Origin: Elusimicrobia bacterium RIFCSPLOWO2_01_FULL_54_10
Lineage (GTDB): Bacteria > Elusimicrobiota > Elusimicrobia > 2-02-FULL-39-32
NCBI GenBank assembly: GCA_001799975.1
Contig: MGUQ01000008.1
Span: 11,501-23,670, forward strand
Direction of reading: 5' to 3'
Length of the DNA: 12,170 bases
Positions 1-2,880 of the stretch are shown here, piece after piece (positions within the stretch are counted from its first letter, which is position 1; each line of letters opens with the position of its first letter). The translations under genes and the position numbers were made by a program. Under the pieces are notes generated by a model, which did no database searches, was not told the DNA's origin, and saw nothing but the letters and a program-made list of their open reading frames with translations.

Positions 1-550
1 CGGGAATGAATTTGAGCTCGCTCTCGGCCAGGTCCGTCATGGCGGTGACAGCCTTACGGGCTTCGGGTTCCTTATCTTTGAGCTTTTCGTTATAGAAGAT
101 CACAACCGAGCGGTTTTTGGCGGTGATTTTGAAATTGACCTGCTGCTGGGCTTTCTGTTGTTCCGCTCTCTGGCTTTCCGTGTTGTCCGGCTCTTTCTCC
201 TTGGCTACGTTTTTGGGCGCGGGAACCCCGGGAAGAAGAAACTTGGTTTCGCCGAGGGGGTTTTCATCCTTTTTCTGGGTTTTCTCGCCGGAACCTTCCT
301 TCCGCAGCACCTGTTTCAAGAGAGAAAGGGTGACGGAGGCCTTCACTTCCGACTGGTCCGGCCCGAAGATTTTGCCCAGGATGCTCTGAACCTGGGCCTC
401 GAGGTCCTTTTCCATGGTGCGCTGTTTTTCAAGCAGCTCAGTTTCGTTTGGGCCGTTTTCGGAATCCGCTGAGAATGTCTGAAGGGGGAACAAACAAAAA
501 GCCGCCCCAACCCCCAGGGTTAGGAAGGATTTTAACGCCGGGGATTTCAT
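1..550 (-). CDS. Secreted protein with FliF C-terminal-like (ring-building) segments, 3' end outside window
   Basis: Partial: 183 residues are visible and the frame is still open at base 1. A signal peptide is clear (basic start, hydrophobic residues 8-26, likely cut after FSA at 28). Residues 39-80 hold a charged helix and then ILGKIFGPDQSEVKASVTL, which resembles the part of FliF/YscJ-family proteins around 'ilGpgnvrvrVsadl'. A polar, low-complexity linker (about 84-137, rich in Lys, Glu and Gln) follows, then VNFKITAKNRSVVIFYNEKL (138-157), like the FliF strand 'ikrLSVAVlvd', and a helix at 160-180. The linker between the two halves is also typical of FliF. The family match is by eye and moderate. 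The start ATG (548-550) overlaps the stop of the upstream PorV-like gene as ATGA, with no Shine-Dalgarno, so coupled translation is likely. No transmembrane segment is seen besides the signal peptide, unlike true FliF. It may be a periplasmic ring or scaffold protein. Confidence 0.6.
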   Translation of the reverse strand, partial: MKSPALKSFLTLGVGAAFCLFPLQTFSADSENGPNETELLEKQRTMEKDLEAQVQSILGKIFGPDQSEVKASVTLSLLKQVLRKEGSGEKTQKKDENPLGETKFLLPGVPAPKNVAKEKEPDNTESQRAEQQKAQQQVNFKITAKNRSVVIFYNEKLKDKEPEARKAVTAMTDLAESELKFIP

Positions 551-2115
551 GGGATCTGTTGGAGGTATTGCTGGATGACAGTATCTGCGGGATCCAGCTC
601 GCTGGCTTTCTGCCAGACTTCCTTGGCTTTGTCCTTCTGCTCGATCAGGAAGAAGCAGGAACCCAGGCGCTTCAAGGCTTCCACGTTCTGAGGGTCCAGG
701 TCCAGGACTTCCTGGAGCAGGATGATGGCCTTGTCGTATTTGGCGTCGTAAATGGACTGGAGGGCGTCATAATTCTTCTGGTCGATATAAGAGAAGCCCT
801 TTCTCTTCTGGTCCAGCCGCTCGGTGAGTTTTTCGCGGGATTCTTTCTCGATGCGGTTCAAAAGCTGAAGGAGTTTCTCGTTGGTGGGGTCTTTTTCAAG
901 GTATGCGTAGCGCAGAGCGTTGATAGCGCTCTTGGTGTCTCCTTTCATGTAGTCGTTGACGGCGCGGCGGATGATGTTGGGCACTTCGCCGTCGCCCACG
1001 GCGGAGGGGAGAGTGGTCACCACGGTGGACAAACGGCCGGAGAGCACCCTCACGTCGTTGTTGGTGGGGTCGATGTCCAGCGATCGGTTCATACGGTCCA
1101 TTCCCAGCATAAAATTCCCTTGCGTGTAAGCGGCCACGCCTTCCTGATAAAGACGGCGCGCCGTGTTCTCGCGACGGGCGATCACGGACTTGCCGAACTT
1201 AAAGCTCGCCCCCATTCTTGTCGAAACACCGAAATCTGTCAAGCCCTGCGCCATGTCCAGGGTCATGCTGCGGATTTTGAAGCCCAGGCCGAAGCTGGAC
1301 CCCCGCAGTTCAGGGTTGCCTTCCACCCCGGCCCGCAGCACCACGAACCGCCACACCCAGTATTCCGTGCCCAGGTTCCATTCCATGACGTTGCGGGAGA
1401 AGTTCTGGGTGACATCCAGGGCCAGGATCATGCGGTCTTTCAGCCCTTTATAGGAATTGCCCACCTTGACCAGCAAGGGCAGGTTGTCGTCGGTGTCCCC
1501 AGTCTTTAAGGCAAAAATGTTCTGGAATCCGAAGGCCAGCTTGTATTTATCGTTGCCGGTGAGCGGATGGGAAATGACGGCTGCGTCCGCCGTCATAAAG
1601 GAATCGTTGGAGCTGTCCAGCTGGCGGGTGATCTGTTTCAAGGACATGCCCACGGCCAGGGTGTCGAGCACCTTTTTGCCGAAGCCGAAGGTGTAGGCGC
1701 TCTCTGCGGCGCCAAAATCGCCTTCTTCTTCCAGCTCGATGATTTCTCCGGCCGCGTTCCTTTCGATGGAGACCTTTTCAAAGCCTCCGGACTTAAGCTG
1801 GGTCATGTTGATGCCCCACACCCAGCCCTTGTTGGTGGGGTGCACATAGCTCAAAGTGGTCATGTTGGTCTGCTCCACCAGGGTGGCCTGCATGACGACC
1901 AGCTCCTTCTTTTCCAGCTGGGTCATGCCTGCGGGGTTCGAATAAACGCTTGTTGCATCGTCGGAGACTGCAAAGAACGCCCGGCCCATGGCGAGCGACC
2001 TTGCGCCTGCGCCGAACGACATGAACTGGGCCACCTGGCCGCCCGTGTCCTTGGCATGGAGCGGAGCCAAGGTCAAAAGGGTCGCGGCAAGGAGGAACCC
2101 GTTAAATTTTTTCAA
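547..2115 (-). CDS. PorV/PorQ (UPF0164)-family outer-membrane protein with C-terminal TPR region
   Basis: 522 aa. A signal peptide occupies residues 1-21 (cut after LHA). Residues 33-64 carry the PorV/PorQ family signature (GAGARSLAMGRAFFAVSDDA, then SVYSNPAGM), the start of a FadL-like beta-barrel that runs in alternating strands to about residue 310. The rest is helical TPR-like: ARRLYQEGVAAYTQGNF near 315-335 and a final good repeat pair at about 450-515 (DKAIILLQEVLDLDPQN, then DKAKEVWQKASELDP). In the family the barrel sits in the outer membrane; in type IX secretion PorV shuttles substrates, but many phyla have relatives of unknown role. The TPR tail would face the periplasm and could hold partner proteins, which is inference. 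The start is TTG (2113-2115), overlapping the stop of the FlgD-like gene as TTGA; it is the only start placing the signal peptide correctly, and the ribosome site is weak, so coupling is likely. Confidence 0.85.
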   Translation of the reverse strand: MKKFNGFLLAATLLTLAPLHAKDTGGQVAQFMSFGAGARSLAMGRAFFAVSDDATSVYSNPAGMTQLEKKELVVMQATLVEQTNMTTLSYVHPTNKGWVWGINMTQLKSGGFEKVSIERNAAGEIIELEEEGDFGAAESAYTFGFGKKVLDTLAVGMSLKQITRQLDSSNDSFMTADAAVISHPLTGNDKYKLAFGFQNIFALKTGDTDDNLPLLVKVGNSYKGLKDRMILALDVTQNFSRNVMEWNLGTEYWVWRFVVLRAGVEGNPELRGSSFGLGFKIRSMTLDMAQGLTDFGVSTRMGASFKFGKSVIARRENTARRLYQEGVAAYTQGNFMLGMDRMNRSLDIDPTNNDVRVLSGRLSTVVTTLPSAVGDGEVPNIIRRAVNDYMKGDTKSAINALRYAYLEKDPTNEKLLQLLNRIEKESREKLTERLDQKRKGFSYIDQKNYDALQSIYDAKYDKAIILLQEVLDLDPQNVEALKRLGSCFFLIEQKDKAKEVWQKASELDPADTVIQQYLQQIP

Positions 2116-2519: not shown

Positions 2520-2553
2520 AAAAAACCGACGGTATCCACAGGATTCGTCGGTT
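2520..2553 (-). terminator. Intrinsic terminator of the riboswitch leader (T2)
   Basis: Read on the minus strand, AACCGACG (2553-2546) pairs with CGTCGGTT (2531-2524). An inner ATCC/GGAT stem (2541-2544 with 2534-2537) and a 3-nt loop follow, and the 3' arm ends in six T (2525-2520). It lies 12 nt before the GGGAG ribosome site of the FlgD-like gene and does not cover it. This fits control of transcription rather than translation. Confidence 0.8.
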
Positions 2554-2594
2554 ATGAGTTGCCAAAATAGGGCTGAGATTTCTCCCCCCTTTGT

Positions 2595-2712
2595 ATGCTT
2601 CGGCAACCCGGCCGACTTTCCTCTCTCGAGGTTAAGTCCCGTCTCCGCGACCAGCGGAGCCCCTTGCGGGGGGCTTTGCGTCCTCCGATTTCTCGGAGTT
2701 TGCCTTTATCGG
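2595..2712 (-). promoter_or_regulatory. c-di-GMP-I (GEMM)-like riboswitch aptamer with two extra hairpins
   Basis: On the minus strand the core begins GGCAAAC (2704-2698), then a 5-bp stem capped by a GAAA tetraloop (2692-2689), then GGACGCAAAGCC (2683-2672). This is the signature of the GEMM/c-di-GMP-I first domain. The 3' half has GACTTAACC (2638-2630), a hairpin with GAGA loop (2627-2624), AAAGTC (2619-2614) and GGCCGGGTTGCCG (2613-2601), matching the second conserved domain. Between the halves are two hairpins not in the usual aptamer: CCCC-GCAA-GGGG (2671-2660) and CTCCGC-TGGTC-GCGGAG (2659-2643). A terminator follows 48 nt downstream. The ligand is inferred from family resemblance; a cGAMP-type (GEMM-Ib) specificity cannot be excluded. 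Confidence 0.75.
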
Positions 2713-2720
2713 TCTTTTGT

Positions 2721-2753: not shown

Positions 2754-2836
2754 GGGCTTTCCAAGCAATAAAAAAAGCCGCCGGAACGACAAGCCGGTGG
2801 CTCCATTGAAATGAATCTGACTACTATGGAAAGCCC
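2754..2836. repeat. 10-bp inverted repeat enclosing terminator T1 (arms 2754-2763 and 2827-2836)
   Basis: GGGCTTTCCA (2754-2763) and TGGAAAGCCC (2827-2836) are perfect reverse complements. The promoter-distal arm sits one base from the 13-bp arm at 2740-2752. In RNA the two arms can form a helix around T1, but only after the polymerase has read through it. Confidence 0.65.
2770..2802 (-). terminator. Intrinsic terminator-like hairpin in the early leader (T1)
   Basis: On the minus strand AGCC-A-CCGG (2802-2794) pairs with CCGG-C-GGCT (2784-2776) around a 9-nt loop, with one A/C mismatch, followed by seven T (2776-2770). It could end transcripts coming from suhB and would also cut RNA started at the promoter just upstream, leaving a product of about 75 nt. 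Confidence 0.75.
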
Positions 2837-2851
2837 CCGACTTACCCAACA

Positions 2852-2880
2852 AATTTAACAGGGGAACGGGGTTTTGTCAA
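2852..2880 (-). promoter_or_regulatory. Sigma70-type promoter for the riboswitch leader and envelope operon
   Basis: TTGACA (2880-2875), a 17-bp spacer and TAAATT (2857-2852) on the minus strand, a near-consensus promoter. The start point is predicted near 2845-2846. It lies 42 bp past the suhB stop, so the envelope operon has its own promoter. ACGGGG (2866-2871) and CCCCGT (2892-2897) form a 6-bp inverted repeat around the -35 box, a possible operator. Confidence 0.75.

Follow-up and report, generated by a model that had tools for sequence, protein, structure and literature searches.

A c-di-GMP-I riboswitch with a hairpin-interrupted P3 that probably switches off transcription of a surface-protein operon in Elusimicrobiota

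According to the available parts of the published account of the Clostridioides difficile riboswitch Cd1, the antiterminator captures the aptamer's 3' strand by base pairing, which opens the pocket, so that Cd1 is an OFF switch, and loss of the tetraloop abolishes binding (PMC9262584). The logic that we propose below is similar, with an antiterminator set against the aptamer 3' strand, but no inserted hairpins are described for Cd1 in those parts (PMC9262584). The cGAMP-binding GEMM-Ib riboswitches of Geobacter share the aptamer fold with our locus; they carry A at position 20, whereas our aptamer has G, and replacement of A20 by G in the Gmet_0970 switch changed the specificity from cGAMP to c-di-GMP (PMC6456294). 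Among the papers listed in searches of an open-access library, none dealt with an insert of the kind described here or with c-di-GMP riboswitches in Elusimicrobia.

We analysed a 12,170-nt stretch of DNA from Elusimicrobia bacterium RIFCSPLOWO2_01_FULL_54_10, termed the window (Table 1). By its covariance matches, the segment 2713-2598 of the minus strand is assigned to the c-di-GMP-I (GEMM-I) aptamers. RF01051 (c-di-GMP-I) matched 2714-2599 with 49.0 bits, above its gathering threshold of 35. RF03167 (c-di-GMP-I-GGC), which is of the same clan and had matches in 34 of 60 relatives' genomes, gave the top clan score in an E-value scan, but its match at 2713-2598 reached 44.7 bits, below the gathering threshold of 59, and the P3b of the window fits RF01051. 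R1, a covariance model made from three relatives with the window excluded, scored the window at 115.4 bits. The core contains the GAAA loop of P2, GGCAAAC, GACGCAAAGCC, GGGUUGCCGAA and a G at what we take to be position 20 of the aptamer numbering; the tetraloop-receptor half is CUUAA (context CUUAAC), not CUAA. In the RF01051 structure, P3 is made of P3a (AGCC:GGUU), then a bulged A, then P3b, in which a GG bulge separates CGG:CCG from GAC:GUC. An initial annotation had placed a GEMM/c-di-GMP-I-like riboswitch at 2595 to 2712; the RF01051 score, the conserved pieces and the distal CCUC-GAGA-GAGG stem bear out the class, and the boundaries are right to within 3 nt of the covariance matches.

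Table 1. Features of the window in order along the minus strand
Feature	Position	Strand	Basis
Inositol-phosphatase-family gene, upstream of promoter	3705-2923	-	PF00459
Predicted promoter TTGACA-17-TAAATT, TG before -10	2852..2880	-	consensus scan, 10/12 matches
T1, a terminator-like hairpin preceding the aptamer	2770..2804	-	scan (weak forms), folds
c-di-GMP-I aptamer including insert	2598..2713	-	RF01051, RF03167 and R1 matches
P2 stem-loop CUCCGA-GAAA-UCGGAG	2683..2698	-	model alignments and core-letter reading
P3a 5' strand AGCC (partner GGUU, 2608-2605)	2672..2675	-	RF01051 structure, pair counts
Inserted hairpin 1, CCCC GCAA GGGG	2660..2671	-	free folds, covariation
Inserted hairpin 2, CUCCGC UGGUC GCGGAG	2643..2659	-	free folds, covariation
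Bulged A, P3b (CGG:CCG, GAC:GUC, GG bulge) and distal hairpin	2609..2642	-	R1 alignment, folds, pair counts
GGCAAC, complement of GUUGCC in aptamer 3' strand	2558..2563	-	complement search, folds
Terminator T2, 5' arm with CCGAC complementary to aptamer GUCGG	2520..2553	-	terminator finder, folds
Gene 1, FlgD_ig protein, YPNPFNSR, 128 aa	2112..2498	-	PF13860, E 1.3e-7
Gene 2, UPF0164/TodX-like with TPR	547..2115	-	PF03687, E 3e-10; PF03349, E 5e-6, below cut-off
Gene 3, open at window edge, signal-peptide-like start by eye	2..550	-	no Pfam match

The RF01051 consensus has nothing but a bulged A between P3a and P3b. Here the window has 29 additional nucleotides, placed after the final C of AGCC and before the bulged A, and they form two abutting hairpins with no nucleotide to spare. 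The two complete hairpins of the initial annotation are therefore present, but not at the ligand junction, where it had put them: the site lies inside P3, 4 bp up from the junction, between the pocket and the tetraloop receptor. P3 is thereby turned into a four-way junction of P3a, hairpin 1, hairpin 2 and P3b. Judged from the window alone, the two hairpins are only suggestive, with two abutting stems in 23 of 1000 dinucleotide shuffles of the insert and an equally stable fold in 21 of 1000. We regard the pair as real because of the relatives, namely the R1 score, the filling of all 15 inserts by stems and the compensatory changes in both stems. The insert was also considered as a dispersed repeat; this was rejected, because even with 3 mismatches allowed the 29-mer occurs once in the genome, whose assembly is 79% complete.

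R1 was run against 235 genomes from the class and an overlapping set of 340 from the phylum, with stricter filters and with match lists limited by E-value; all 99 RF03167 matches were inspected, together with the R1 matches of at least 110 nt among those listed. Insert-bearing aptamers were found at no fewer than 15 loci in at least 12 genomes and at least 5 families of Elusimicrobiota, the shortest measuring 116 nt among the matches listed. Seven belong to family f1 (the window, G001:C48, G002:C41, G003:C236, G006:C17, G006:C15 and G008:C10), and others lie beyond the class (G323:C31 in f23; G326:C6, G327:C4 and G327:C1 in f25; G328:C7, G328:C11b and G329:C319b in f26; G330:C9 in f27). The presence of N in G000:C104 and G006:C19 kept both out of the counts, and long matches that lacked the insert on inspection were discarded (9 of 17 and 4 of 4 in two sets, and G007:C34). 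The RF01051 score exceeds the gathering threshold at every insert-bearing locus but G008:C10 (14/15). Inserts range from 29 to 80 nt, and stem lengths as well as loop and stem letters differ between families. All 15 are filled by at least two stems with at most 1 nt free, against 0.5-7.3% of shuffles; no single-stem or unstructured insert was seen among them, G000:C104 being unjudgeable because of its N. The insert of G006:C17 folds best into a long branched stem plus one hairpin (-49.4 kcal/mol), and its reading as four hairpins, though possible, was dropped, the best fold with hairpin 1 separate being a four-stem one at -46.1 kcal/mol. An exact-pattern probe of viral contigs returned five stretches without the insert and none with it.

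The initial annotation had asked for covariation of the extra stems in homologous aptamers, and it was found for both. Across the seven f1 loci 98.5% of cells pair, with changes on both sides in 16 of 28 pairs; of the five measures only 'further pair types' was matched by any shuffles (24 of 500). A 15-row alignment, comprising 14 insert-bearing loci (G327:C1 is missing) and the insert-free L161:487-618, gave 99.0% pairing and both-side changes in 20 of 28 pairs, compared with 12.4 in shuffles and at most 7 with partners slid, and none of the five measures was reached by any of 500 shuffles. Both-side changes affect 4/4 counted pairs of hairpin 1 and 6/6 of hairpin 2. Both alignments had been fitted to the model, which biases them toward it; free folds of the inserts yield the same type of stems. 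Since kinship alone can outdo shuffles without structure, more weight belongs to the control with slid partners and to the occurrence in five families. Sequence comparison thus supports the aptamer, its insert and the covariation, and it indicates that both inserted stems are maintained by compensatory changes. The riboswitch belongs to a known family, and its two-hairpin P3 insert is a new architectural variant. Other departures from the usual layout were noted in passing. One 5' half is followed by two successive 3' halves (GGGCUGCCGAA.. twice within about 30-60 nt) in L227, L228, L229 and L079, the four cases among the 61 distinct cores that a motif scan yielded, and also, by eye, in L169 1043-1184; such loci are possibly two mutually exclusive aptamers. 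Extra stems are found in P2 rather than P3 in L079 (G014:C46:6173-6300), L082 (G015:C9), L117 (G034:C7) and L167 1029-1163.

Because the parts on both sides of the insert are kept, P3 should still serve as a rod. This would be possible, we infer, in a four-way junction where P3a stacks on P3b: the two helices probably remain stacked despite the hairpins, leaving the P2 GAAA loop able to dock, and the hairpins probably raise the cost of closing P3, so that more ligand would be needed. When the insert was omitted from the full RNA in the energy model, the advantage of the open state fell by 1.5-4.4 kcal/mol in 7/7 loci; with pre-terminator RNA it fell in 5/7 (in two of these by 0.3 kcal/mol or less), and the window is not among these five. 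On these calculations, a bias of the switch toward ON through the insert is plausible.

There is a real possibility, short of probable, that the hairpins are passive and that P3 accepts any self-contained structure at the bulge, with no role in switching. The insert is dispensable, since close counterparts lack it: G007:C34, from the same genus as G008:C10, and the operon leaders L171, L204, L205 and L118. The variable length of the inserts and the lack of conservation of loops and stem lengths between families point the same way. Against passivity stand the preservation of the stems by compensatory changes, the use of one site in five families and the uniform presence of more than one stem at all loci that could be judged. 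We consider it unlikely that these RNAs form a separate c-di-GMP-I architecture, a P3a-on-P3b four-way junction kept in distant families for setting a threshold or for a second input. If this were true, the RNA would act in series with T1 and would either be tuned or respond to two inputs, the second being metal- or protein-dependent stacking.

Downstream of the aptamer, GGCAAC..CCGAC can pair with the aptamer 3' strand, or its CCGAC can join T2. T2 is absent from the list of the regional terminator scan, which was restricted to loops of 8. As in an OFF riboswitch, the 5' arm of this terminator has an alternative partner within the aptamer; in the window, the CCGAC:aptamer pairing appears in the pre-terminator fold only. 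The terminator finder placed a site at 13 of the 15 insert-bearing loci; in five of these 13 the terminator is inside a gene that starts 3-10 nt past the aptamer, and eight loci remain. Altogether six of the 15 loci have a gene start 3-10 nt after the aptamer and no terminator/antiterminator platform. At 7 of the 8 loci the aptamer tail has a complement of 6-10 nt beside, or overlapping, the 5' arm of the terminator; the exception, G006:C15, has a terminator and no such complement. The complement tracks the letters of each aptamer, GGCAAC(C) occurring with GGUUGCC and GGUAACC with GGUUACC. Over 107 loci of all kinds, however, the excess is modest: the tail has a complement of at least 7 nt at 28 of them, against 84 of 631 swapped controls, only a twofold difference. 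As a separate observation, a frame of at least 90 aa starts no more than 15 nt past the aptamer 3' end at 46 of 108 loci (e.g., L157 1783-1917 on the minus strand), which hints at translational control there, not termination.

Folding of the seven loci with a complement is consistent with such a competition. In RNA ending before the 3' arm of the terminator, the antiterminator was favoured over a fold with P3a imposed by 7.0-18.9 kcal/mol (7/7 loci), and the aptamer held 4-7 of the 7 positions of the terminator 5' arm. With P3a imposed on the full RNA, T2 formed at 6-7 of 7 arm positions. Without constraint, the full RNA left T2 absent or partial in six loci and complete in the window (7/7 arm positions), where the full-length fold from the aptamer on lets T2 coexist with GGCAAC:GUUGCC. 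By these models the antiterminator alternative is clear in the relatives and weaker in the window, where the choice would have to fall during RNA synthesis.

Sequence comparison thus supports possible alternative pairings, and we infer the ligand and the OFF direction. Without ligand, the aptamer 3' strand GUCGG-CCG-GGUUGCC would pair with GGCAAC..CCGAC, sequestering the 5' arm of T2 co-transcriptionally and allowing read-through. Bound c-di-GMP would hold P2 and P3 together and keep the 3' strand in P3; T2 could then form and the genes would be off. The hairpin-interrupted c-di-GMP-I riboswitch is therefore proposed as a transcriptional OFF switch for the surface-protein operon, a reading that we hold to be probable, and c-di-GMP would most likely turn this FlgD_ig/UPF0164 operon off.

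The leader upstream of the aptamer offers a different account. The promoter consensus scan found one site where 0.5 was expected in shuffles, and a TTGACAAAA..-10 of like kind occupies the corresponding position in the four orthologous leaders, those of G001, G002, G003 and G006:C17. Terminator-like sites, weak forms of T1 among them, number four in the region, with 1.4 expected in shuffles, and a terminator-like hairpin stands at the position of T1 in 5/5 leaders read. T1 has an alternative pairing partner at 2841-2827, so that 2841-2754 of the window (minus strand) contains a second attenuator ahead of the aptamer, in which no sensor was recognised. Four of the five leaders read, G003 being the exception, carry GGGCUUUCC/GGAAAGCCC on either side of T1; that T1 is a remnant of a first riboswitch is speculation. 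Between T1 and the aptamer, the segment 2752-2740 (AAAAAACCGACGG) is a 13-nt perfect complement to the 3' arm of T2 and might capture it and set read-through, with an ON switch or no ligand effect at T2. The lowest-energy fold of 2760-2515 uses the segment (z -5.2) and breaks T2, and without the segment T2 forms even when P3 is open. In the other leaders, however, the complement shrinks to 9 nt (G002), is rich in G-U (G001) or is absent (G003 and G006:C17). We therefore rejected the long-range helix as the main switch, its pairing not being conserved in relatives, and consider this account quite improbable.

Very unlikely, in our estimate, is a role of the hairpin pair as a second binding site for a protein, a metal or another ligand, giving a two-input switch: the site is always filled by a set of stems and T1 supplies a further attenuator in the leader, but the families share neither loop nor stem letters.

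For the OFF switch that we favour, c-di-GMP remains the predicted ligand because position 20 is G in the window and at all 15 insert-bearing loci, and we consider it the likely ligand of the window aptamer. The P2 loop is GNRA at 13 of the 15 loci and the receptor half is CUAA at nine, the window not among them. Eleven GGDEF matches are present in the window's genome, several with the signature GG[DE]E[FI]. Among the 99 RF03167 matches, position 20, read by motif, is A in 24, G in 70 and unread in 5; two aptamers of the window's genome have the cGAMP letter A20 (L040, G000:C79:11350-11425, and L041 1573-1715 on the minus strand). That the insert shifts the ligand to cGAMP or another cyclic dinucleotide is very unlikely: some relatives in the same genomes do have A20, as in cGAMP switches, but the insert lies outside the pocket and G20 and the core letters are kept, leaving the altered ligand choice raised by the initial annotation unsupported.

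On the same strand follow, in order, the inositol-phosphatase-family gene, the promoter, T1, the aptamer, T2 and genes 1, 2 and 3. The envelope operon proposed earlier fits this gene content, with FlgD_ig (PF13860), a UPF0164/TodX-like protein with TPR, putatively PorV-like by resemblance, and a third reading frame whose start resembles a signal peptide by eye. The Elusimicrobia MAGs RIFCSPLOWO2_01_FULL_60_11 and ND5_Bin_57 encode the two named relatives of gene 2 (83 and 85% identity). A FlgD_ig-type protein with YPNPF[ND]SR is encoded 3' of 7 of the 15 insert-bearing switches (f1, f23 and f26); the homologue of gene 2 comes directly next in G003. The FlgD_ig leader of the window has one aptamer only, with T1 ahead. 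Tandem aptamers occur in FlgD_ig operon leaders of f22 (L171 801-1126), f23 (L165 2447-2029 and L205 742-1183), f25 (L204 1488-1112), f26 (L160 962-1412 and L161 487-948) and f6 (L118). Several tandem leaders have AGCUAAAGAUAGGGGG in the first aptamer and an exact 16-nt complement before its terminator.

In this intensively studied riboswitch the insert falls between the pocket and the contact of loop and receptor, with the parts on either side kept. It offers a natural test of how a helix with an internal junction can still make a long-range RNA contact, and of whether a switch can be tuned by stems at its periphery. For the biology of the group, these loci point to c-di-GMP control of surface genes in the nearly uncultured phylum Elusimicrobiota, the FlgD_ig operon having tandem switches in some lineages and the two-hairpin variant in others.
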